Notes under the pieces: generated by a model
Database searches by the model: none
Told to the model about the DNA's origin: nothing
The model's input: only the letters and a program-made list of their open reading frames with translations
Source: a virus
Virus record (IMG/VR): IMGVR_UViG_3300025162_000138
Location: 1 to 30,429 of that record
DNA length: 30,429 bases
Strand: one strand, 5' to 3'
Program-made: the position numbers and the translations under genes
Shown here: piece by piece, positions 8,015-29,372 of the stretch
Layout: every line of letters begins with the position of its first letter
Numbering within the stretch: position 1 is the first letter of the stretch

Positions 8015-8080
8015 AAGAGTATTAACCTTGTATCTATCCGGAGCTGCCCGGTCTGCCATAAGCAGAAGGTTAATACTCTT
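8015..8080 (-). ncRNA. Three-way-junction leader or small RNA ending in a U-tract
   Basis: A perfect 15-bp inverted repeat (8066-8080 with 8015-8029) encloses two further hairpins: CTGC/GCAG (8062-8065 with 8053-8056) with a 5-nt loop, and CCGG/CCGG (8048-8051 with 8038-8041) with a 6-nt loop. Together they form a compact three-way junction. On the minus strand the closing stem runs into TTTTTT. The promoter at 8088-8116 predicts a start at about 8081, so the RNA would begin with the stem itself. This could be a free RNA of about 70 nt, an attenuator, or a protective 5' leader for the protease and capsid operon whose ribosome site follows at once. Confidence 0.65.
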
Positions 8081-8087
8081 ACTGGGG

Positions 8088-8116
8088 ATTATACTAAATG
8101 TTTTTTAATTTGTCTA
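8088..8116 (-). promoter_or_regulatory. Sigma-70-type promoter for capsid genes / structured RNA
   Basis: On the minus strand TAGACA (8116-8111), a 17-bp spacer, and a perfect TATAAT (8093-8088). The -35 box overlaps the end of the glycosyltransferase gene (stop at 8114). Start is expected at about 8081, the first bases of the three-way-junction element. It shares its -35 box with the promoters at 25623-25651 and 15277-15305. Confidence 0.75.
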
Positions 8117-10201
8117 TAGCTTAAATCTTTTCTTAATATCCGCATAGGTTTTTCTCTCCTCATCTAATACTCCCTTAGCATATAGATTCTCTAAGTTAAC
8201 AGTAGTTGAGGTAAAGTGAACTATAAAATTACTTACTACCTTAACTATCTCCTTATGTTTCCTTAATACCGCCATATCATAAATCCAGTTATCTCCGCAG
8301 AATATCTTAAGCTCCTCCGGTATAGGCTCCCAGTTCTCTTTCCGGCCAAAGATAAACCAACCGCCTGAAACATCCCGGAGAGAGACATGAACCGCAAGAA
8401 CCTCCTCCGATTCTGAACCCTTTTTAAAGTAATCCTCCGGGAGCTTATTCTCTGTTAAGTAGGTTACTACCCCTATCTCTGAGTGGCTTTCTAAGAGAGC
8501 TACGCACTCGGTTATTATCTCCGGCCTTACTAAAACATCATCATTAAGGAGGAGGTAGTAGGGAGTATCCGTAAGCTCTAAGCCAAAGTTCCAAGCCGGG
8601 TTAACATACCGATTAGCTCCGGTAAAGATATTAACCTTATCACTCCACTTCCGAGGGTGTTCTTTAAGCTTTCCGCTTTCCGTATTATCTAATATGTTAA
8701 TAGTTTTTATACAGGAACTCTTACTAAGCTCCATAACCGCTTTCTCAAATAACTCCATATTACATTTAGCTAAGGTAGGGATAACCACTGTAACGGAATT
8801 AGAGGGAAGTAACTTACCTTTAGCTGTAGTAGTCTTTAGGTATTCTCTCTCCCCTAAGAACTTATCTACTCTCCCGGCAACCTCCGGCTTAGCCTCTCTA
8901 ATTGCATCTCGGAGCATTAGCAGGTGTTCTGCTGAGGCCTCCTTAAAGTAAATCTCTAACCCCTTATCCTCTTTACCAAAGTTAATATAAACATCGGCTA
9001 AGTGTAACCTATTATTTAGAGTATCCTCAAACTTAATAGCCATCTCTGCAAACCTTTCCGCAAGCTCCGGCCTATAGTCTATAGCATAGGTTCTTGCTAA
9101 GAGGTTTATTATAGTTGTATTCTTAGGAGATTCCGTAAGAGCTAATTTAAAGCAATCTATAGCTCTCTGATACTTCTTAGCCTCTAAGTAAATCTCTCCC
9201 TTAGCTATATAAGGCCTCCAAGATACTTGAGCTAAATCGTAGGTTACTAATTTATTTGCGTTCTTAGAGTTATCTATAGCCTTATTAAATAGCTCTAAAG
9301 CTATCTCTGAGTGGCCTTCATAATCATACCAGAGGCCGAGGTTATAATAATAGCCGGGGTTAATAGTTTCAATAGCCTTAAACTCCTCCATCCTCTCTTT
9401 CTTTCCGGCTCTCATACAGCTCACCAGTAGGCCTTCATAGATAGTAGGGGTATAAATCTTATGTATATTCTCCGAGTTCTCTTTTATAAAGGCTAAGAAC
9501 TTCTCATAATAGGCTATACTTTTTTCATACTCCCCTATTCCGTAATACTGAACTCCGAGATGATAAAAGAAGTAAGGCTCATCTGGGGTAAGCTTAATCT
9601 GTTTTTCTAAGAGCTTTATATTCCGGTTATCCGTTCCTTTCCGTGCCTTCTCCCTTCTTAAATACCCGGTATGGTGTATTACTAAGCCTCTATTACGGAG
9701 CTTAGGATACTTACCCGGAATACCCTTAACCATATCCTCTCCGGGATTATTTATATTCTCATGGACAATAAAGTGGTATTTAATTTCCGGGTCATTAGGG
9801 AATAAGCGGTAGTTACTTGATATAGCAGGTTCAGGTAGGCCTTCCATTTGAGAGGCTATAGTAACTAAGTATAAAGCTCTCTCCTCCTTATCTAAAATCT
9901 TTTTAATAGTTTCATTACAGGATTCTGTTAGAGTTTCATCACAATCTAATTGAAAGATATAATCACCTGTAGCATATTTTAAGGCCTCATTCCGAGCTGC
10001 AGAGAAGTCTATATTATCCTCAGTAAAGGGAAAGGAGTAAACCTTATCGGTATATCTTTTAGCAATCTCTATTGTATTATCCGTGCTCCCGGTATCTATT
10101 ACTACTATCTCGTAAGGGTATGCTCCTATACTTCCGAGGCAGGCCGGGAGGTTCTTAGATTCATTCTTAGCAATAATACAAAAGGTTACTGATTTTCTCA
10201 T
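8114..10201 (-). CDS. GT2 glycosyltransferase - TPR - GT2-like fusion
   Basis: A 695-residue protein with two glycosyltransferase-like ends and a TPR middle. Residues about 4-230 are GT-A family 2: 'VTFCIIAKNESKNLPACLGSI', 'EIVVIDTGSTDNT', 'FSAARNEAL', and acidic 'QLDCDETL' for metal/nucleotide-sugar binding. Residues about 205-430 hold TPR-like helices ('FYHLGVQYYGIGEYEKSIAYYEKFL', 'EALELFNKAI', 'YQRAIDCFKLAL'). From about 465 a second GT2-like domain follows: 'VTVVIPTLAKCN', 'NRYVNPAWNFGLE', 'YYLLLNDDVLV'. It sits between portal and protease genes, so its target may be a head protein. There is no signal peptide or membrane anchor, so it should act in the cytoplasm. It may also act on host surface glycans. 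Confidence 0.88.
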   Translation of the reverse strand: MRKSVTFCIIAKNESKNLPACLGSIGAYPYEIVVIDTGSTDNTIEIAKRYTDKVYSFPFTEDNIDFSAARNEALKYATGDYIFQLDCDETLTESCNETIKKILDKEERALYLVTIASQMEGLPEPAISSNYRLFPNDPEIKYHFIVHENINNPGEDMVKGIPGKYPKLRNRGLVIHHTGYLRREKARKGTDNRNIKLLEKQIKLTPDEPYFFYHLGVQYYGIGEYEKSIAYYEKFLAFIKENSENIHKIYTPTIYEGLLVSCMRAGKKERMEEFKAIETINPGYYYNLGLWYDYEGHSEIALELFNKAIDNSKNANKLVTYDLAQVSWRPYIAKGEIYLEAKKYQRAIDCFKLALTESPKNTTIINLLARTYAIDYRPELAERFAEMAIKFEDTLNNRLHLADVYINFGKEDKGLEIYFKEASAEHLLMLRDAIREAKPEVAGRVDKFLGEREYLKTTTAKGKLLPSNSVTVVIPTLAKCNMELFEKAVMELSKSSCIKTINILDNTESGKLKEHPRKWSDKVNIFTGANRYVNPAWNFGLELTDTPYYLLLNDDVLVRPEIITECVALLESHSEIGVVTYLTENKLPEDYFKKGSESEEVLAVHVSLRDVSGGWFIFGRKENWEPIPEELKIFCGDNWIYDMAVLRKHKEIVKVVSNFIVHFTSTTVNLENLYAKGVLDEERKTYADIKKRFKL

Positions 10202-12569: not shown

Positions 12570-12594
12570 TATACTAAGAATCTAATTTTGTAAA
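12566..12594 (-). promoter_or_regulatory. Promoter for the portal gene
   Basis: On the minus strand TTTACA (12594-12589), a 17-bp spacer, and TATACT (12571-12566). The -35 box lies inside the 3' end of the preceding glycosyltransferase gene (stop 12582), the same arrangement as at 8088-8116. The -10 box is part of the 10-bp palindrome AGTATATACT. Transcription would start at about 12559, a short leader before the portal ATG at 12543. Confidence 0.6.
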
Positions 12595-17366: not shown

Positions 17367-17671
17367 ATCTCCCTCCTCATAGGGCATTTACCGCATAGCT
17401 CCGGGAGGAGTATAGCCTTACAATCTCCTCTCCTCTCATAGTTCTCCTCTACCTGCCTCTTAAGCTCCATAGTTCTCTCCCGAAGTTCCTTTTTAATATC
17501 CGAGTTCTCGTGCTCTGCCGGAGTTAACATAGCAAAGAGAGCCGGGCAGCATTTAAGTATCCCTACCCTTCCCCATATATGGTGTATCTGCCTTCCGTAA
17601 TTTACCGGGAGTATATGCAGGTATTCCTTCCAAAAATCATAAGCATTATTTATTCGGTTCTGCCACTTCAC
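17363..17671 (-). CDS. Small protein with HNH-like His/Cys pattern
   Basis: A 102-residue protein with 'YGRQIHHIWGRVG', then 'CCPALFAMLTPAEHEN', reminiscent of a degenerate HNH/zinc-binding fold ('HHI-G-R ... N/L-L-x-x-x-H'). The C-terminal part is 'CKAILLPELCGKCPMRREI' with three more cysteines. Many phages carry such small nucleic-acid-binding or nuclease proteins in their middle region. I cannot assign an activity: the usual HNH Asn is not clear. Overlaps both neighbours. Confidence 0.6.
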   Translation of the reverse strand: MKWQNRINNAYDFWKEYLHILPVNYGRQIHHIWGRVGILKCCPALFAMLTPAEHENSDIKKELRERTMELKRQVEENYERRGDCKAILLPELCGKCPMRREI

Positions 17672-17822
17672 CCTTATCCTCCTTTATCTCGGCAACTCCG
17701 TTAACAAATATTACTAATTGCTCTGCTCCGCAGTTCCGGCAAATATAGGTTCTGGCTCTCTTATCCTTAGTTCTAAATCCGGCCTTCTTTCCGCATTTGA
17801 TACAAGTTAAGTTATTCGGCAT
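17646..17822 (-). CDS. Small zinc-ribbon protein
   Basis: A 58-residue protein with two Cys pairs, 'LTCIKCGKK' (C7, C10) and 'YICRNCGAEQ' (C28, C31), 17 residues apart: a zinc ribbon. The C-terminus is acidic ('AEIKEDKGEVAEPNK'). RBS AAGGAGG is seven bases before the ATG. It overlaps the next gene by 26 nt. Likely a nucleic-acid or protein-binding accessory factor; no specific role can be read. Confidence 0.75.
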   Translation of the reverse strand: MPNNLTCIKCGKKAGFRTKDKRARTYICRNCGAEQLVIFVNGVAEIKEDKGEVAEPNK

Positions 17823-18088: not shown

Positions 18089-18309
18089 TTTTCCTCCTTA
18101 ATCTCCGAGGCCTGGGGTAACCTCCAAAGGTGCTCCGGGTCTGATATAAACTGCAGGGCCATACATCCGTTTACTGGCTGCTGCTGTCCTTTATCTAATA
18201 TACTCTGTTTCATTAAAACATTAAACATTAGGGTATTCCTTACTAACCAACCGCCATATACCGGATACCTCTCTAACCTTGCCTCCTCACTCACTACTTC
18301 CCATTTCAT
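18085..18309 (-). CDS. Hypothetical 74-residue protein
   Basis: Unrecognised small protein, MKWEVVSEEARLERYPVYGG at the start and 'FISDPEHLWRLPQASEIKEEK' at the end. Start overlaps the preceding stop (ATGA) and its own stop overlaps the next start (ATGA), so it is translated as part of a coupled chain. RBS GGAGGGTAATAAG. Confidence 0.6.
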   Translation of the reverse strand: MKWEVVSEEARLERYPVYGGWLVRNTLMFNVLMKQSILDKGQQQPVNGCMALQFISDPEHLWRLPQASEIKEEK

Positions 18310-18485
18310 CTTATTACCCTCCTCTTTAGAATCTTAGGTATATAGTATCCGCACCTCCGGCCTTTACCCGGATTTAAAAATATCTTTCTTACATCACAAA
18401 GGAGGTCTATAGTTAAGTTACTCTCCTTTCCGAGCTTACACTTCTTACAGCATACCTTTTTTATTATCCCTGTCTCGTTACTCAT
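18306..18485 (-). CDS. Small Cys-rich basic protein
   Basis: A 59-residue protein: MSNETGIIKKVCCKKCKLGK, then 'LLCDVRKIFLNPGKGRRCGYYIPKIL'. Five cysteines (12, 13, 16, 30, 45) and many Lys/Arg suggest a zinc-bound nucleic-acid-binding fold. ATGA overlap with the next gene; ribosome site AGGAGGCCAGG upstream. The function is unknown. Confidence 0.6.
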   Translation of the reverse strand: MSNETGIIKKVCCKKCKLGKESNLTIDLLCDVRKIFLNPGKGRRCGYYIPKILKRRVIR

Positions 18486-18813
18486 CCTGGCCTCCTATTA
18501 CTTCTCTCTCTCCGGGTAACTCATTTAGCTCCGGGATATTCTCCGGGTTAAATCTCTTTTTACTCCTCCGAGCCGGAGAGATTATAGGCTCTAAGTCATC
18601 TATAGGAATTATCCTTAAGGTTACAGAACCGCACCGCTGTATAGGGTAAGTAAGAGCCTTCTCCCGGCTTATAGTATATTTACCCGGATATAACCGCTTT
18701 CCCTCCTTAGTTTTATAATCTATCTCTATTCTTATATCCTTACATAACTTATACTCGGCTATACCTATACTCCTTGTTTTCCATATCGGTGCGTGAATCT
18801 TAACTGTTCTCAT
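18478..18813 (-). CDS. Hypothetical 111-residue protein
   Basis: Unrecognised basic protein. The N-terminal half is beta-rich ('TVKIHAPIWKTRSIGIAEYKL', 'KDIRIEIDYKTKEGKRLYPGKYTISREKAL'), with 'LRIIPIDDLEPII' and a charged C-terminus ('ARRSKKRFNPENIPELNEL'). RBS AAAGGAGGGAAAAA lies before the ATG at 18813, which overlaps the preceding stop as ATGA. Confidence 0.65.
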   Translation of the reverse strand: MRTVKIHAPIWKTRSIGIAEYKLCKDIRIEIDYKTKEGKRLYPGKYTISREKALTYPIQRCGSVTLRIIPIDDLEPIISPARRSKKRFNPENIPELNELPGEREVIGGQDE

Positions 18814-18968
18814 TTTTTCCCTCCTTTTTTCTCCCCTCTCTCTATCTCCCGGCCTAATTCTACTAACCTCATAGCTAAATCCTCTACTATAAACCTTGAT
18901 ACAAAACTCTCCTTTTCAAACTTTACTAACATATTATCTACCCTTTCCCTTATCTGCTCTTTAGTCAT
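18810..18968 (-). CDS. Small helical charged protein
   Basis: A 52-residue protein, MTKEQIRERVDNMLVKFEKE then 'SFVSRFIVEDLAMRLVELGREIERGEKK', predicted as two amphipathic helices. RBS GGGGAGGGG is a few bases before the ATG. It ends in an ATGA overlap with the 111-residue gene. No family recognised. Confidence 0.6.
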   Translation of the reverse strand: MTKEQIRERVDNMLVKFEKESFVSRFIVEDLAMRLVELGREIERGEKKGGKK

Positions 18969-19792: not shown

Positions 19793-20437
19793 TTAACTAT
19801 CTAACAGCTCCGGTAATTTTATCTCCAGTATCCTTGCTCTCTCCTCTATCCTTCTCTGTATAGCTCCTCCATAAATCTCCCCTATCTCCGGGAGAGAGTA
19901 ATTAGAGGAGATTATAAATTGTAGCTTATATCTATACATATCGTTATAGAAGGCAAAAAACTTCTCCTGTTCCCACCTCTTAAGCTCTATCTTTCCCATA
20001 TCATCTATTATTATAGTTTTATAGTTTCCTAAGTTCCTTACCTCCTCCTGAGCCTCCTTCTCATTAGTAATCAACTTATTTAAAAGCTGTAACTCTGTAA
20101 ATACTAACATCTCTCCACTCCTCCGGGTTTTAAGGAGGTTTAAGTATATCCCTGCAAGTAAATGCGTTTTACCGAGGCCTACTGCTCCGGTAATAAAAAA
20201 GGAATCGTTTATACTCCCGGTTATTATCTCCTTAGCCTTTATCATTGAGCTGTTCCGGCCTTCATAGTTCTCTAAGGTTTTACCCCGGAAGTAAGAGCCA
20301 AACTGCACCTCTACCATAGCATCATAGTAGCAATCACAGAGCTTTATATAAGAGTATCCTCTATCCTCAAAGCTTATATAAAAGGAATCGTTACACTTAT
20401 CACACTTATACATTTTCGGGTTTTTTTCTTGAGACAT
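19793..20437 (-). CDS. DnaC-like helicase loader ATPase
   Basis: A 214-residue AAA+ protein with an N-terminal zinc-binding part ('KCDKCNDSFY' and 'LCDCYYDA') followed by Walker A 'TGAVGLGKTH' (83-92), Walker B 'TIIIDDMG' (141-148), sensor 'ISSNYS', and an arginine-finger stretch 'AIQRRIEERARILEI'. This is the DnaC/DnaI family that loads the replicative helicase, and the replication initiator is encoded directly upstream, as in many Gram-positive-type phages. I use the ATG at 20437, with GGAGG at about 7 nt, rather than a TTG eight codons upstream. It overlaps the initiator gene by 32 nt. Confidence 0.9.
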   Translation of the reverse strand: MSQEKNPKMYKCDKCNDSFYISFEDRGYSYIKLCDCYYDAMVEVQFGSYFRGKTLENYEGRNSSMIKAKEIITGSINDSFFITGAVGLGKTHLLAGIYLNLLKTRRSGEMLVFTELQLLNKLITNEKEAQEEVRNLGNYKTIIIDDMGKIELKRWEQEKFFAFYNDMYRYKLQFIISSNYSLPEIGEIYGGAIQRRIEERARILEIKLPELLDS

Positions 20438-21197
20438 AACCAAGCCTCCTCTCCCTGTCAACTAAGCTCCCGGCCTTTCCTCCGGTCTGTAGCTTATTTA
20501 TCTGGGAATAGAAAACCCCTATTGTATAACCTGCCTTATCTAAAAAATCATCCTTACTGGCTATAAACTTATCTACCATAGCCTTTAACTCGGTAATAGT
20601 AAACTGAGCTAATAGTTTTTTAATTAACTCGGTATCCTTAGCTCCCTTATAAAAATACTTCTTTTTATCTTTATTCCATTTAGCCTCTAAGTAACTCTTA
20701 CAGAAGTAGTCAGAGAACTCCCTTATATTAGGTTTAGGATTAGGATTAGGATTAGGATTAGGATTAGGATTAGGCCTATCTTGGCTTAAACTGGCTTTAT
20801 CTGGCTTAATCTGGCTCTCTACTCCCTCTAAGCTTAGCTCCTCCTGAAAGGGAGGTATAGGGGTTTTCCTGCGGTGCCGGGTAGGCTTACCATCTGAGGT
20901 ATAGCTTAAAAGGTGATTAACTCCGTTTAGTAGTAGATACTCCCGGCCCATATCCTGCCATATCTTTATTAGCTCATTCTCCACTAACTCACTTCTCCAG
21001 TTCTTTACATCTCCTACTCTTACCTTGTCCATACACATACAATAAGCCTTACCATAGAGAATCTCAATATTACCCTCGGAGCAGCCATAGTCATCTACGA
21101 GTAAGAGTATTCTCTTATATAAATCTTGTGCAGGGATAGTGCAGCGGTTAAGATTCGGAGAGGTTAAGGTAGTTTCCTTTAATATCCGGTTAGGCAT
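20406..21197 (-). CDS. Replisome organiser / replication initiator
   Basis: A 263-residue protein. Residues 1-110 look like a winged-helix initiator domain ('NRILKETTLTSPNLNRCTIP', 'QDLYKRILLLVDDYGCSEG', 'WRSELVENELIKIWQ', 'GREYLLLNGVNHLL'). A Pro-Asn repeat (142-157) is the linker, and a helical C-terminus ('FCKSYLEAKWNKDKKKYF', 'FTITELKAMVDKFIASKDDF', 'AGYTIGVFYSQINKL') should contact the loader or helicase. It precedes the DnaC-like gene, the standard pairing. RBS AAGGAGATATA. A promoter and structured leader lie just upstream. Confidence 0.85.
   Translation of the reverse strand: MPNRILKETTLTSPNLNRCTIPAQDLYKRILLLVDDYGCSEGNIEILYGKAYCMCMDKVRVGDVKNWRSELVENELIKIWQDMGREYLLLNGVNHLLSYTSDGKPTRHRRKTPIPPFQEELSLEGVESQIKPDKASLSQDRPNPNPNPNPNPNPKPNIREFSDYFCKSYLEAKWNKDKKKYFYKGAKDTELIKKLLAQFTITELKAMVDKFIASKDDFLDKAGYTIGVFYSQINKLQTGGKAGSLVDRERRLGYVSRKKPENV
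20734..20774. repeat. TTAGGA hexamer tandem repeat inside the initiator gene
   Basis: Six perfect TTAGGA units plus a five-base partial unit. On the coding strand each hexamer is CCTAAT and encodes Pro-Asn, giving an in-frame, extensible linker. It resembles telomere repeats only by chance. Length changes by slippage would keep the frame. Confidence 0.95.
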
Positions 21198-21312
21198 TAT
21201 ATCTCCTTAGGGGTAAAATAGTTCCCGGAGTGGAGACAGGTAGAGAGCCAAAGGGAGGATTTACCTGAACTGCTTTCGCAATTGCTCCGGGAACTTTTTT
21301 AATTAGTTTCAT
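21190..21312 (-). CDS. Possible 40-residue leader peptide
   Basis: An ATG at 21312, soon after the predicted transcription start and with GGAGATAAAAGAG upstream, opens MKLIKKVPGAIAKAVQVNPP and continues to RRYNA, ending 8 nt inside the initiator gene. The frame is fully occupied by an inverted-repeat structure, so the signal could be RNA, peptide or both. If translated, ribosomes would melt the structure and couple to the initiator start. Confidence 0.4.
   Translation of the reverse strand: MKLIKKVPGAIAKAVQVNPPFGSLPVSTPGTILPLRRYNA
21220..21295 (-). promoter_or_regulatory. Structured leader upstream of the replication initiator
   Basis: A perfect 11-bp inverted repeat (AGTTCCCGGAG, 21220-21230, and CTCCGGGAACT, 21285-21295) encloses two more hairpins: TGC-GAAA-GCA (21280-21271, coding strand, a GNRA tetraloop) and CAGGTA/TACCTG (21237-21242 with 21262-21267). 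The result is a three-way junction 20 nt before the initiator ribosome site. On the plus strand the stem runs into six Ts, so it could also terminate opposing transcripts. I do not recognise a known riboswitch. An origin-related structure is another option. Confidence 0.6.
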
Positions 21313-21334
21313 AATCTCTTTTATCTCCAGTTAT

Positions 21335-21363
21335 AGTATACATAAAACCCTCCCATCTGTCCA
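21335..21363 (-). promoter_or_regulatory. Promoter for the replication genes
   Basis: On the minus strand TGGACA (21363-21358), a 17-bp spacer, and TATACT (21340-21335). It starts directly at the stop of the coiled-coil gene (21364). Expected start is about 21328, before the leader ORF and structured element. Confidence 0.65.
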
Positions 21364-22962: not shown

Positions 22963-23872
22963 TCTTTTTCTCCTGAGCTATAAGCTCCTGAAGGTGTTTA
23001 ATAATCTCGGAGGCCTGCTTAGAGGTTAAATCATTAAATAAGGTTACTCCGTAATCTTTCAGAATCTTATCCGTTGCTGAGCCATCCTTCCAGTGCTGGA
23101 CAAGATTAGAGATAAAGCTCAGCTGTTTATCTGAGGCTAACTTCTCTCCCTTATCATTAACTTTAGCCGGGGTAGTAGAGGCAGGAGGAGGATTAGATTG
23201 CCCGGTAGGAGCTGAAGGAGCAGGTATTTTTTCCTCTGTAGCTGAGGGTATAGCATTAAACTGCTCTACATCACTCATAGCCTCCGGCTCCGTTACTTCC
23301 GGCTTACCTCCGGGGAATACAGGAGCAGTATCTATTACCTCTACATTAACCTCCTCCGGGGCATAGGGCATTCCTCCTATCTCATCAGGGAAGGCCAACC
23401 TGAACCCCTGGCATATAGCAACCTTTTTAAGCATAGTTCTCGGCTTTGATTTCCAGAAGGTATTAAGCTCCTCCCCTACTACTTTCCCATCCTTCCAGAG
23501 TTTCTTTACCTGCTTATACTCTCCAAAATATACCTCGTGATAGAGAGGGTGCTCCCAGTCTTTCCGGTAAATCTTAACCCAGGCCTTCATTTCATCTCCA
23601 GTTCCTTCCGTTCCGCATTCAAATCCGTTCCAGTGCTTAGTTCTTTCTGCCCTCTTAAGATAAACCTCATAGCCAACTACTATAGAGGCAGGTTTATCAT
23701 CGGCATACTTTACTAAGTGAATCTCCCTTTTAAAAGGGTTAAGCCCATAGCTCTTACATATCTGAAGAAATAAGCCTACCTCCTTCTCTGTAGCTTTCTC
23801 ACTAATATACTTCTTAACTATCTCCGGGGTTAATGCTGTCTCCTGCTCTTTTGCTATCATCTCTCCGTTCAT
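22949..23872 (-). CDS. recT: RecT-family single-strand annealing protein
   Basis: A 307-residue annealase. Marks of the RecT/Bet family: 'VGLFLQICKSYGLNPFKREIHLVKY', 'VVGYEVYLKRAERT', 'KAWVKIYRKDWEHPLYHEVYF', 'FWKSKPRTMLKKVAICQGFRLAFPDE'. A Pro/Ala linker (about 205-245) leads to a small C-terminal helical domain ('ASDKQLSFISNLVQHW' to the end), which occurs as an add-on in some phage annealases. It anneals strands made by the adjacent exonuclease, for recombination and probably concatemer formation. Start overlaps the preceding small gene by ATGA. Confidence 0.92.
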   Translation of the reverse strand: MNGEMIAKEQETALTPEIVKKYISEKATEKEVGLFLQICKSYGLNPFKREIHLVKYADDKPASIVVGYEVYLKRAERTKHWNGFECGTEGTGDEMKAWVKIYRKDWEHPLYHEVYFGEYKQVKKLWKDGKVVGEELNTFWKSKPRTMLKKVAICQGFRLAFPDEIGGMPYAPEEVNVEVIDTAPVFPGGKPEVTEPEAMSDVEQFNAIPSATEEKIPAPSAPTGQSNPPPASTTPAKVNDKGEKLASDKQLSFISNLVQHWKDGSATDKILKDYGVTLFNDLTSKQASEIIKHLQELIAQEKKNGQK

Positions 23873-24024
23873 ATTCTCTCCTTTGAATCTTTATTTAAGC
23901 CAAGCTCCGTTCTTAATACCCCTATCTGCATTACATTAACCTTAACTAAATCTAAAGCCAAAATAGTATCATCTATTAAGGCCTCCAGCTGATTTAGTTT
24001 TTCTTTCCTCTTATTCTCCGGCAT
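23869..24024 (-). CDS. Small 51-residue helical protein
   Basis: MPENKRKEKLNQLEALIDDT followed by 'ILALDLVKVNVMQIGVLRTELGLNKDSKERI'; likely one long helix or helical hairpin. It is coupled on both sides: TAATG overlap with the ribbon-helix-helix gene before it and ATGA overlap with recT after it. The function is unknown; it may bind RecT or the regulator. Confidence 0.65.
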   Translation of the reverse strand: MPENKRKEKLNQLEALIDDTILALDLVKVNVMQIGVLRTELGLNKDSKERI

Positions 24025-25400: not shown

Positions 25401-25568
25401 TTACCAGCTAAAATACCCGGACTCGTTTAGCGTTCCTTTATCGCTTACAAGATACCATACCTCCTTCCCGGTAGATAATACATACACCCTTACCGCAACC
25501 TGCTTATACCCCATACACTCCCTTGCCTCTTTCTCCGCCTCTTTTTTTGTTTCAAAGTATCTCACCAT
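25401..25568 (-). CDS. Small 55-residue protein, first gene of the early operon
   Basis: MVRYFETKKEAEKEARECMG, then 'YKQVAVRVYVLSTGKEVWYLVSDKGTL', a helix followed by beta strands. This is a common layout for small phage proteins ('ry-x-t-x-x-e-A...'). RBS AAGGAGAG lies a few bases before the ATG. It is the first frame after the strong promoter at 25623-25651, so it should be made early. The function is unknown. Confidence 0.65.
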   Translation of the reverse strand: MVRYFETKKEAEKEARECMGYKQVAVRVYVLSTGKEVWYLVSDKGTLNESGYFSW

Positions 25569-25846
25569 TTTCTCTCCTTTTGTTGGCCGGTAGTTTCTGG
25601 CTCTCTTTCTCTCTCCATTATTAGTATAACATAACTCCGTTCATTTGTCTATATTAAAAATCAATATAAATCTCTTTTTATTATTTTTATAGCAAATAGC
25701 CTTATTCTATATAGCTTAAATAAATCTTTAGGCCTATTCCTGCTTAGGCTCAGTTTTAAGAGGGGTATAAATAGAGAGGTATTAGGTATAGGGTAGGGGT
25801 GTTATCTCTTTAGTATACCTGCGTGGTAGGGCAAATCCGGGAGGTA
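25569..25846 (-). promoter_or_regulatory. Non-coding regulatory gap between tail and early operons
   Basis: No convincing gene in these 278 bases. It holds the promoter at 25623-25651, a very A/T-rich stretch (about 25651-25735), a weak hairpin GCCTA/TAGGC at about 25731-25749 that could end tail transcripts, and two copies of GAGGTATTAG, about 65 nt apart. It divides late tail genes from early genes and could also hold operator sites for the ribbon-helix-helix protein. An origin is possible but I see no iteron array. Confidence 0.6.
25623..25651 (-). promoter_or_regulatory. Early promoter with extended -10
   Basis: On the minus strand TAGACA (25651-25646), a 17-bp spacer, and TATACT (25628-25623) preceded by TGT, an extended -10. 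An A/T-rich tract lies upstream of the -35, like an UP element. It would drive the micro-ORFs, DUF932-like, RHH, RecT and exonuclease genes. Confidence 0.8.
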
Positions 25847-27686: not shown

Positions 27687-29372
27687 CTATAGTAATAAGT
27701 TTTTCTCTAATTGTCCGAGAGTAGAATCATCAAGCTCTAAGTAATTAGTAAACCCTGCAGCTATTATCTTTCCGGTTATAGTTGCCTCTAATTTATCTAA
27801 ATCTAAATTAACCTGTTCTATCCTTACCGCCTGCCCTATTAACCCTAAAAGAGTATCTGTTAAGGTTATACCATCATAAACCTGAAATGTAAACCCGGAG
27901 AGAAAGGTAGTAACCTGAATCCGCTGAGCCGGGTAAACGGTATCAACTAAGAGCCTCTGAGCTAAGTTAAGAGCTGAGGCCGAGGTATAGTGCCATATAG
28001 TAGTATCCTGCACTATATTAGTTACTACCCCATAAATAGCCTGACTCCCTGAGTCATCAGCAGTTTCACTTCCAGCCCAGCTTGAGGTAGAAGTATCATA
28101 GCCATAATATACCTGTTGCCTATTGAATAAATCCGTTGAATCTATATCAAGTATAGCTATATCTTTCTTATTAGCTCCTACTAAAGAATATACCGGAACT
28201 ATCCCGGTATTACCCCACCAAGTTACCCGGATTTTACCATCACTCTCACAATATACCGCTGAATTAGTTGTCTTGATATAACTCTGTAGAATAGTTACTA
28301 TATCCTGCCCGGTAAACTCCGCACTTAAAGCCATAGATATTCCGGTGCAGTAGGCCTTCCACGCAAGCCAAGCGGTATAATCTATATCCTTATTTGCGGT
28401 AGAGGTAGTAGAATCAAGGCCTCCATAGGTAGTTAAAATATCCCAGAGTAAATCTGCCGGGTTTATATTTGTAAAATCTACCGGAGAACCTTCCGCACCT
28501 ATTACCTTAGTAGCTAAATAATAAAACTTATCCTTAAGGCCTATATCTACAGCATTACTATTAAACCGAGTTGTAAGTAATTTATTCTTAGAGAGTGCTA
28601 AGAACTCTACCGGAGGAGGAAAGGCCGGGTCAATAAAACTTAACCTTAGCTCTATATCCTGAGTAAAGTATCTACCGGGATTAAATATAACATCCTTCCA
28701 CCTTCCATCTGTATTATCTACCCCTATAGTAATATCTCCTGAGGTTACTTGGTCACCCCTCTTTTGTATCTGGCCATAAGATTTTACTATTGAGGAGAGG
28801 TCAGCGGTAACAAATACCGGGTAAATATCCGCAGTATCAGTTCCGCTTGAACTAAATCCTATACTTATACTGGCTCCCGGATTCCCCGGAGCAGTAGGAG
28901 TCATTACCGGAGAGCCATCAAAGTAAATCTCCCCGGAGTTACCCTGCATAACTATCTTATAGGTATGAACCGCTGAGGAGGGGTCAATAGCATAAACCTG
29001 AGAGGTTACAGGGTTTACTATAGCTCCCGGAGAACCGCCGGGATAAGTTCCATATATCTGTATATCTTGAGAGTAAGTATCATCTCCGAGGTGAATAGTA
29101 AGTATCCCTCCGGCTGTAACTTGAGCCTTAACCTCTAAGATAGTTTCAGCTCCGTTATTAGCCGGATTAGGAATACCCATACTATAGTTATCTAATAGAG
29201 TAAGCTTTCCTCCGGCAACCGAGGCCGGGCCACTTACTCCCCATTTAGGAGCAGAGGCCTCCGGGAGATTCTCAGCGGTATAAATAGGGTAGTTTTTAAA
29301 GATAAAGCTTAAGGCCGGAGTAGAGGCCTGAGCATCTAATTTATTCCTAAAGTCAGGTGATACTGGTATCAT
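27687..29372 (-). CDS. Tail hub / baseplate protein with lectin-like insert
   Basis: A 561-residue protein. The N-terminus 'VSPDFRNKLDAQASTPALSF' is typical of tail-tip proteins. Residues about 40-195 look like a concanavalin-type jelly roll ('SGPASVAGGKLTLLDN', 'TILEVKAQVTAGGILTIHLG', 'HTYKIVMQGNSGEIYFDGSPV'), probably glycan-binding. From about 200 on it follows a hub pattern: 'GDITIGVDNTDGRWKD', 'DLLWDILTTYGGLDS', 'VTILQSYIKTTNSAVYCESDGKIRV', 'DLFNRQQVYYGYD' and 'QAVRIEQVNLDLDKLEATITGK'. It likely makes the base of the tail tip and binds host sugar. Confidence 0.78.
   Translation of the reverse strand: MIPVSPDFRNKLDAQASTPALSFIFKNYPIYTAENLPEASAPKWGVSGPASVAGGKLTLLDNYSMGIPNPANNGAETILEVKAQVTAGGILTIHLGDDTYSQDIQIYGTYPGGSPGAIVNPVTSQVYAIDPSSAVHTYKIVMQGNSGEIYFDGSPVMTPTAPGNPGASISIGFSSSGTDTADIYPVFVTADLSSIVKSYGQIQKRGDQVTSGDITIGVDNTDGRWKDVIFNPGRYFTQDIELRLSFIDPAFPPPVEFLALSKNKLLTTRFNSNAVDIGLKDKFYYLATKVIGAEGSPVDFTNINPADLLWDILTTYGGLDSTTSTANKDIDYTAWLAWKAYCTGISMALSAEFTGQDIVTILQSYIKTTNSAVYCESDGKIRVTWWGNTGIVPVYSLVGANKKDIAILDIDSTDLFNRQQVYYGYDTSTSSWAGSETADDSGSQAIYGVVTNIVQDTTIWHYTSASALNLAQRLLVDTVYPAQRIQVTTFLSGFTFQVYDGITLTDTLLGLIGQAVRIEQVNLDLDKLEATITGKIIAAGFTNYLELDDSTLGQLEKNLLL

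Follow-up and report, generated by a model that had tools for sequence, protein, structure and literature searches.

The window analyzed here, i.e., the whole stretch of DNA with its 30,429 bases, is an IMG/VR virus record and carries essentially all of its genes on the minus strand. In the order of transcription, genes for a DUF932 protein, RecT, an exonuclease-like protein, p22022 and p21364 are followed by a gap of 166 nt, the replication initiator and a DnaC-like helicase loader (Table 1). Truly non-coding gaps are few in this genome, and this one harbors the leader element described below. The identity of the initiator is consistent with its weak PHROG matches and with the DnaC-like loader predicted downstream, and its C-terminal domain is common to distant phages. 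Origin iterons of phages usually lie inside the initiator gene. For the six-base repeats found there we infer this function, and they are regarded as probable candidates for the origin iterons. Elsewhere in the genome, five short frames of 51–59 codons (17646–17822, 18306–18485, 18810–18968, 23869–24024 and 25401–25568) display Shine-Dalgarno-like sequences and mostly good coding scores, and likely represent small genes; the product of 17646–17822 would be a zinc-ribbon-like CXXC protein.

Table 1. Features of the initiator leader, its surroundings and comparable loci (window coordinates unless a locus is named).
Feature	Position	Strand	Remarks
DnaC-like helicase loader	19793–20461	-	downstream of the initiator
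Replication initiator	20406–21197	-	weakly matching DnaD-like and replication-initiation PHROGs (E about 1e-3)
Six-base repeats (TAATCC)n	20733–20776	-	within the initiator gene, coding for an NPNPNP linker (NPNPNPNPNPNPKPN); sequence read directly
40-codon ATG frame	21190–21312	-	TAA 8 nt inside the initiator ORF
Initiator Shine-Dalgarno AAGGAG	21203–21208	-	
S2 3' arm CTCCGGGAACT, then ATTTTA U-run	21214–21230	-	terminator-like, imperfect
S1 3' arm TGTCTCCA	21231–21238	-	directly 5' of the S2 3' arm, spacing 0
Inner hairpin 2, CAGGTA...TACCTG, loop AAATCCTCCC	21237–21267	-	
Inner hairpin 1, AATTGC-GAAA-GCAGTT	21268–21283	-	
S2 5' arm (TAAAAA)AGTTCCCGGAG	21285–21301	-	
14-codon frame MYTITGDKRDYETN	21299–21343	-	strong Shine-Dalgarno GGGAGG; ends at the foot of S2
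S1 5' arm TGGAGATA	21322–21329	-	predicted 5' end of the transcript
Predicted sigma-70-type promoter TGGACA-N17-TATACT	21335–21363	-	-35 21363–21358, -10 21340–21335; 10/12 matches
Promoter TAGACA-17-TATAAT, branched stem with two hairpins, U6	8015–8116	-	before p6020
Pseudoknot leaders of the same geometry	L192: 2061; L200: 2196; L206: 2247		intervening small gene encodes an HNH protein or is unknown

The promoter had already been noticed in a first-pass annotation of this DNA and is present as described. Sites with at least 10 of 12 matches occur ten times on the minus strand of the window versus twice on the plus strand. Transcription is predicted to start at about 21328 ± 2, which is 1 nt off the start of the S1 helix. 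Further promoters of this type are found at 12594 before the portal gene and at 25651 before the early genes (TTTACA-17-TATACT and TAGACA-17-TATACT, respectively).

The closing stem of the leader, S2, comprises 11 perfect pairs (21295–21285/21230–21220) and extends with flanking A/U pairs to 17 nt at 94%, i.e., with one mismatch. It encloses two inner hairpins, one of them capped by GAAA, again in agreement with the earlier description. The 3' arm of S2 ends about 22–23 nt before the start codon of the initiator, a distance within the 3–45 nt set for the leader class discussed below. The U-run which follows (TATTTTA, 5 T of 8) is weaker than that of most class members having one and was not listed by the terminator scan. 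Terminators with 50-nt loops are unusual. A perfect inverted repeat of at least 11 bp occurs somewhere in 30 kb in about 59% of the shuffles; therefore, the stem alone proves little. The leader element as a whole has a z of -5.7, with none of 500 shuffles being as stable, and of 2023 windows of 90 nt along the minus strand, those of the leader take ranks 2 and 5 by structure. The most structured 90-nt stretch of the window lies within the coding region of p27687 (29095–29184, minus strand, z = -5.75).

The first-pass annotation described the fold as a three-way junction. The stem with its two hairpins is indeed present, but the architecture goes beyond a junction and is that of an H-type pseudoknot whose second stem resembles a terminator. 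The S1 pairing partner at the predicted transcript start was absent from that description, as was the 14-codon frame. Here, TGGAGATA pairs with TGTCTCCA in 8 pairs including one G-U, and the leader is modeled as an H-type pseudoknot; ATTTT and the Shine-Dalgarno sequence come next. S1 alone reaches p = 0.0065 in a position-restricted shuffle, and the joint pseudoknot score p = 0.002 with S1 kept inside the transcript. A second possible pairing, which beats S1 in an unrestricted search, connects GGGAGGGTTT (21354–21345) with the loop AAATCCTCCC of hairpin 2. Since GGGAGGGTTT lies upstream of the predicted start, this pairing would be possible only in transcripts reading through from the RecT operon. 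The Shine-Dalgarno sequence of the 14-codon frame, a frame which itself is present only on read-through transcripts, would be covered by this pairing as well.

Close relatives of the initiator are absent from all collections searched, and covariation is readable in distant phages only. No DNA-level relative of the region was found among 50,697 phage records, tblastn with the initiator gave no match and tblastn with the upstream protein p21364 gave one weak match of 72 residues only. Scans with p21364 and RecT as well as a scan of the genome collection with the initiator revealed no relatives, and the terminase scan returned solely a near-identical contig, which ends short of the leader. The exact stem pattern matched three times in viral contigs; these matches are unrelated, at about chance expectation, and were discarded. 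Three distant relatives of the initiator have only the C-terminal domain in common with it, and their profile led to the loci L014–L016. In L016, TTGACA-17-TATACT and a branched stem lie before the initiator, with UUUUUAUUUU leading up to the start codon. L014 and L016 are alike in their flanking genes and in the C-terminal domain of the initiator, whereas the N-terminal domain is different and the leader unit is present in L016 only, which represents a natural module swap. Since L014 carries the other N-terminal module without a leader, this suggests that the leader travels with the N-terminal module of the initiator.

A scan with the initiator of L016 yielded 42 loci. Twelve of these were aligned, which gave a further 160 rows from genome and viral contigs. 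Many of the related initiators are preceded by a leader of high stability (z as low as -9.4), in the first set almost only where a gap exists. The layout, which was recognized first by eye and then by a defined test, consists of the promoter, S1, the 5' arm of S2, S1' within the S2 loop, S2' just before the start codon and a U-run. A leader was counted as positive if it had the lowest possible p in the joint test, and the underlying p values are based on dinucleotide shuffles and simple stem energies. Among the search returns, i.e., the best 80 of 457 viral relatives and the best 80 of 106, the pseudoknot layout was found before 31 of 98 replication-protein-O-type initiators with a gap of at least 90 nt or of unknown length. 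Of 375 control gaps taken from these loci, 13 displayed it (Fisher p = 5e-14). Initiators with a short gap displayed it in one of 68 cases, and two thirds of the initiators with a gap are without such a pseudoknot. For the viral contigs, 27 of 60 initiators with such a gap carry the layout (Fisher p = 5e-17).

As the joint p can drop owing to a strong S2 alone, S2 was also chosen by its own energy and S1 tested against a shuffled 5' segment. Here, 18 of 43 initiator leaders showed an S1 with p ≤ 0.05, where about 2 are expected, and 15 of the 18 were at the minimum; the controls gave 5 of 42, three at the minimum. The best controls are partly true leaders, separated from the initiator by one small gene (L192, L200 and L206), and for L192 the predicted transcript start is again at S1. 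Promoters with at least 10 of 12 matches that start within 3 nt of S1 were found five times versus 0.28 expected, the window being one of them, and those with at least 9 of 12 matches eight times versus 1.5. Behind S2, the mean number of T in 8 positions is 4.8 versus 2.4 expected, at least 5 T being present in 19 of 33 leaders, and the median distance between the S2 end and the start codon is 19 nt.

The leaders of different phages have no sequence in common. An S1 arm pairs on average over 8.4 bp with its own partner, versus 2.7 bp with the partners of other phages. Compensatory changes are visible in both pairs of loci that allow an alignment: one in S1 and three in S2 for L041/L053, and three in S1 with none broken for L031/L033, for which S2 was left out due to an unreliable alignment. 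Taken from these sequence comparisons, the pseudoknot-leader architecture appears well supported across the class. These four loci also contain an extra hairpin with a U-run (e.g., CCGAC...GTCGG TTTTTT), located between S1 and S2 or using the 5' arm of S2, which is possibly a second terminator or a competing fold.

In the window, S2 lies before the start codon, S1 and S1' are placed as in the class and the predicted promoter start falls at S1. The membership of the window itself is supported modestly, by its S1 test. The N-terminal domain of its initiator differs from that of the class; if the window is a member, the leader thus occurs beyond a single initiator family. Named phages with related initiators (Caldibacillus CBP1, Virgibacillus Mimir87, Halomonas YPHTV-1, Psychrobacillus Spoks, Jimmer2 and others) and phages with window-type N-termini revealed no clear pseudoknot leader, and most of them have no gap. 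A literature search within open papers found no description of such leaders, which may be explained by the lack of a clear pseudoknot leader in the cultured phages with related initiators.

A second branched element within this phage had been proposed as well and is real. It contains a perfect 15-bp stem (8080–8066/8029–8015) with two hairpins; its promoter at 8116 overlaps the stop codon of p8114, the predicted start lies exactly at the stem, and U6 is followed by the ribosome-binding site and the GTG of p6020. A search for S1 in 8015–8080 gave a weak match only, and the low joint p stems from the 15-bp stem. This element therefore appears related to the initiator leader only in its layout. 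Next to it, between the portal and head genes of the structural operon, 8114–10201 encodes a family-2 glycosyltransferase with TPR repeats.

Several known systems resemble the leader in part. For the P4 CI RNA with seqA-seqC and for IsrK of Gifsy-1, termination near the promoter yields a short RNA and read-through the mRNA (PMC4825925). Like these, the leader is a structured untranslated RNA heading a phage replication or regulatory operon. P4, however, uses three complementary blocks and RNA processing, whereas for the leader of the window a single pseudoknot in cis is predicted, its S2 resembling a terminator. No covariance-model match to isrK or any other Rfam family was obtained for this leader or for 28 related loci, and at gathering and relaxed thresholds (to E = 5) no match beyond chance appeared. 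The terminator-like stem just upstream of the initiator ribosome-binding site and the 5' part of the leader, which offers an alternative or additional pairing, are reminiscent of pIP501 and pT181. Attenuation of rep genes of this type needs a countertranscript from the opposite strand. Across the leader, the only candidate for an antisense promoter is a 9/12 site on the plus strand (21191–21219), and in contrast to pIP501/pT181 the 3' arm of S1 lies beside and not within an S2 arm. The pseudoknot of ColIb-P9/IncB repZ acts as an activator of translation, which is coupled there to a leader peptide, and the antisense RNAI counteracts it. The leader of the window differs from it by an uORF that is not conserved and by its terminator-like S2. 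Common to both would be a pseudoknot located in the initiator leader, for which repZ is given by reference 57 of PMC10286972. Finally, the put sites of HK022 also represent a branched RNA directly after a phage promoter. The put RNAs consist of two adjacent hairpins with conserved sequence and have neither a pseudoknot nor a terminal U-run. P4 CI/IsrK, pIP501-type attenuation and ColIb-P9 repZ are regarded as functional neighbors and not as demonstrated homologs.

Transcription attenuation is the best fit to the promoter, to a transcript that begins in a helix and ends like a terminator, and to a position directly ahead of the ribosome-binding site. In this reading, in which we place about even confidence, the feature is a promoter-driven pseudoknot terminator acting on the replication initiator. 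Transcription of the promoter-driven initiator transcript would start at the 5' arm of S1, and the 5' arm of S2, the inner hairpins, the 3' arm of S1 and the 3' arm of S2 would follow in the RNA and fold into the H-type pseudoknot. Some polymerases would stop at the U-run of S2 and free a compact RNA of about 110–115 nt with both ends in helices, while the remaining ones would read through and allow the initiator to be made. The S1 pairing would set how often S2 forms in time, and the short RNA may feed back, privately for each phage, on the leader it derives from. For the class of leaders, the sequence statistics demonstrate the placement of the promoter, the S1/S2 geometry, the U-run and the divergence of sequence with pairing kept; we infer beyond them that S2 would terminate in vivo, that S1 would affect this termination and that the short RNA may be active. 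The lack of conserved letters speaks against binding of a ligand and fits to a private pairing code as in replicon incompatibility and P4 immunity. Only as a tentative and rather doubtful extension, the leaders may form a previously undescribed class of sequence-hypervariable phage RNAs, in which the RNA freed by the pseudoknot terminator would be a private replication brake or confer superinfection immunity, the arms diversifying while the architecture stays.

Other readings have to be weighed against attenuation. We consider it unlikely that the unit is mainly a gene for a small RNA which acts in trans, e.g., in phage-private immunity or copy control on the leader of a sister genome, as the P4 CI RNA does. 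A unit complete in itself, in which helices close both RNA ends, would suit such a role, as would the arms unrelated between phages (8.4 versus 2.7 bp), which are expected of a specificity determinant, and its place at the replication initiator. P4 CI RNA and IsrK provide a precedent (PMC4825925). However, S1 and S1' would already be paired in cis in the freed RNA, two short matches are all that was found as a separate complementary target for the window, and an antisense promoter is not convincingly indicated. An action at the mRNA level, protecting the 5' end from decay or holding the ribosome-binding site with transcription unaffected, is quite unlikely. It would agree with the 5' end in a helix, with the median of 19 nt between S2 and the start codon and with the second branched element, which starts right at its own stem. 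Nevertheless, the Shine-Dalgarno sequence, where present, is usually free beyond the U-run, and stability alone leaves the enrichment of U-runs unexplained. Slightly less probable still is a chance match for S1, with S2 being no more than an intercistronic terminator or a hairpin internal to the operon. Hairpins with U-runs do occur in other gaps of the genome (351–431, 8015–8080 and 24313–24360) and S1 of the window has just 8 bp, but its restricted p of 0.0065, its placement at the predicted start, the class-wide enrichment of S1 with S2 fixed and the coincidence with promoters argue against chance.

The first-pass annotation had offered two further explanations, a leader peptide that couples translation or a cis-acting RNA that senses something before replication. 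The 40-codon frame is present, overlaps the initiator by 8 nt as reported, and its coding score lies between those of coding and off-frame windows, a weak signal. Its Shine-Dalgarno score, however, is -6.4 compared to -13.4 for the 14-codon frame, it contains no run of regulatory codons, and overlapping ATG uORFs are no more frequent in the class than chance predicts (6 of 33 structured leaders versus 4.6 expected from shuffles). The weak Shine-Dalgarno sequence, the middling coding score and this chance frequency mark the frame as incidental, and coupling by a leader peptide is very improbable. A covariance analysis in relatives had been proposed as a check; in the distant relatives found, the pairing architecture is kept and the frame is not, and the outcome named there as refuting, with the frame alone or neither of the two conserved, does not occur. 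Of the cis-acting RNA, the structured leader at the initiator and its layout before other phage initiators stand, while metabolite sensing is not supported, the leaders having no sequence in common. A riboswitch, e.g., for SAM or carboxy-SAM, would fit to a structured leader with a junction, but with no conserved sequence core across phages and no Rfam match beyond chance at E = 5 it is hardly to be expected.

Judged from its sequence features, the layout is probably an RNA brake on phage DNA replication that has not been described so far. Since only the pairing geometry is conserved and no letters are, ordinary family searches would not see this leader RNA. Here, a search rule is offered instead, i.e., a promoter start at S1, S1' beside S2', a U-run, a ribosome-binding site and the initiator. 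If the attenuation reading is true, many uncultivated phages would time the start of DNA copying through RNA, and the leader would represent a switch for phage replication and possibly for superinfection immunity.
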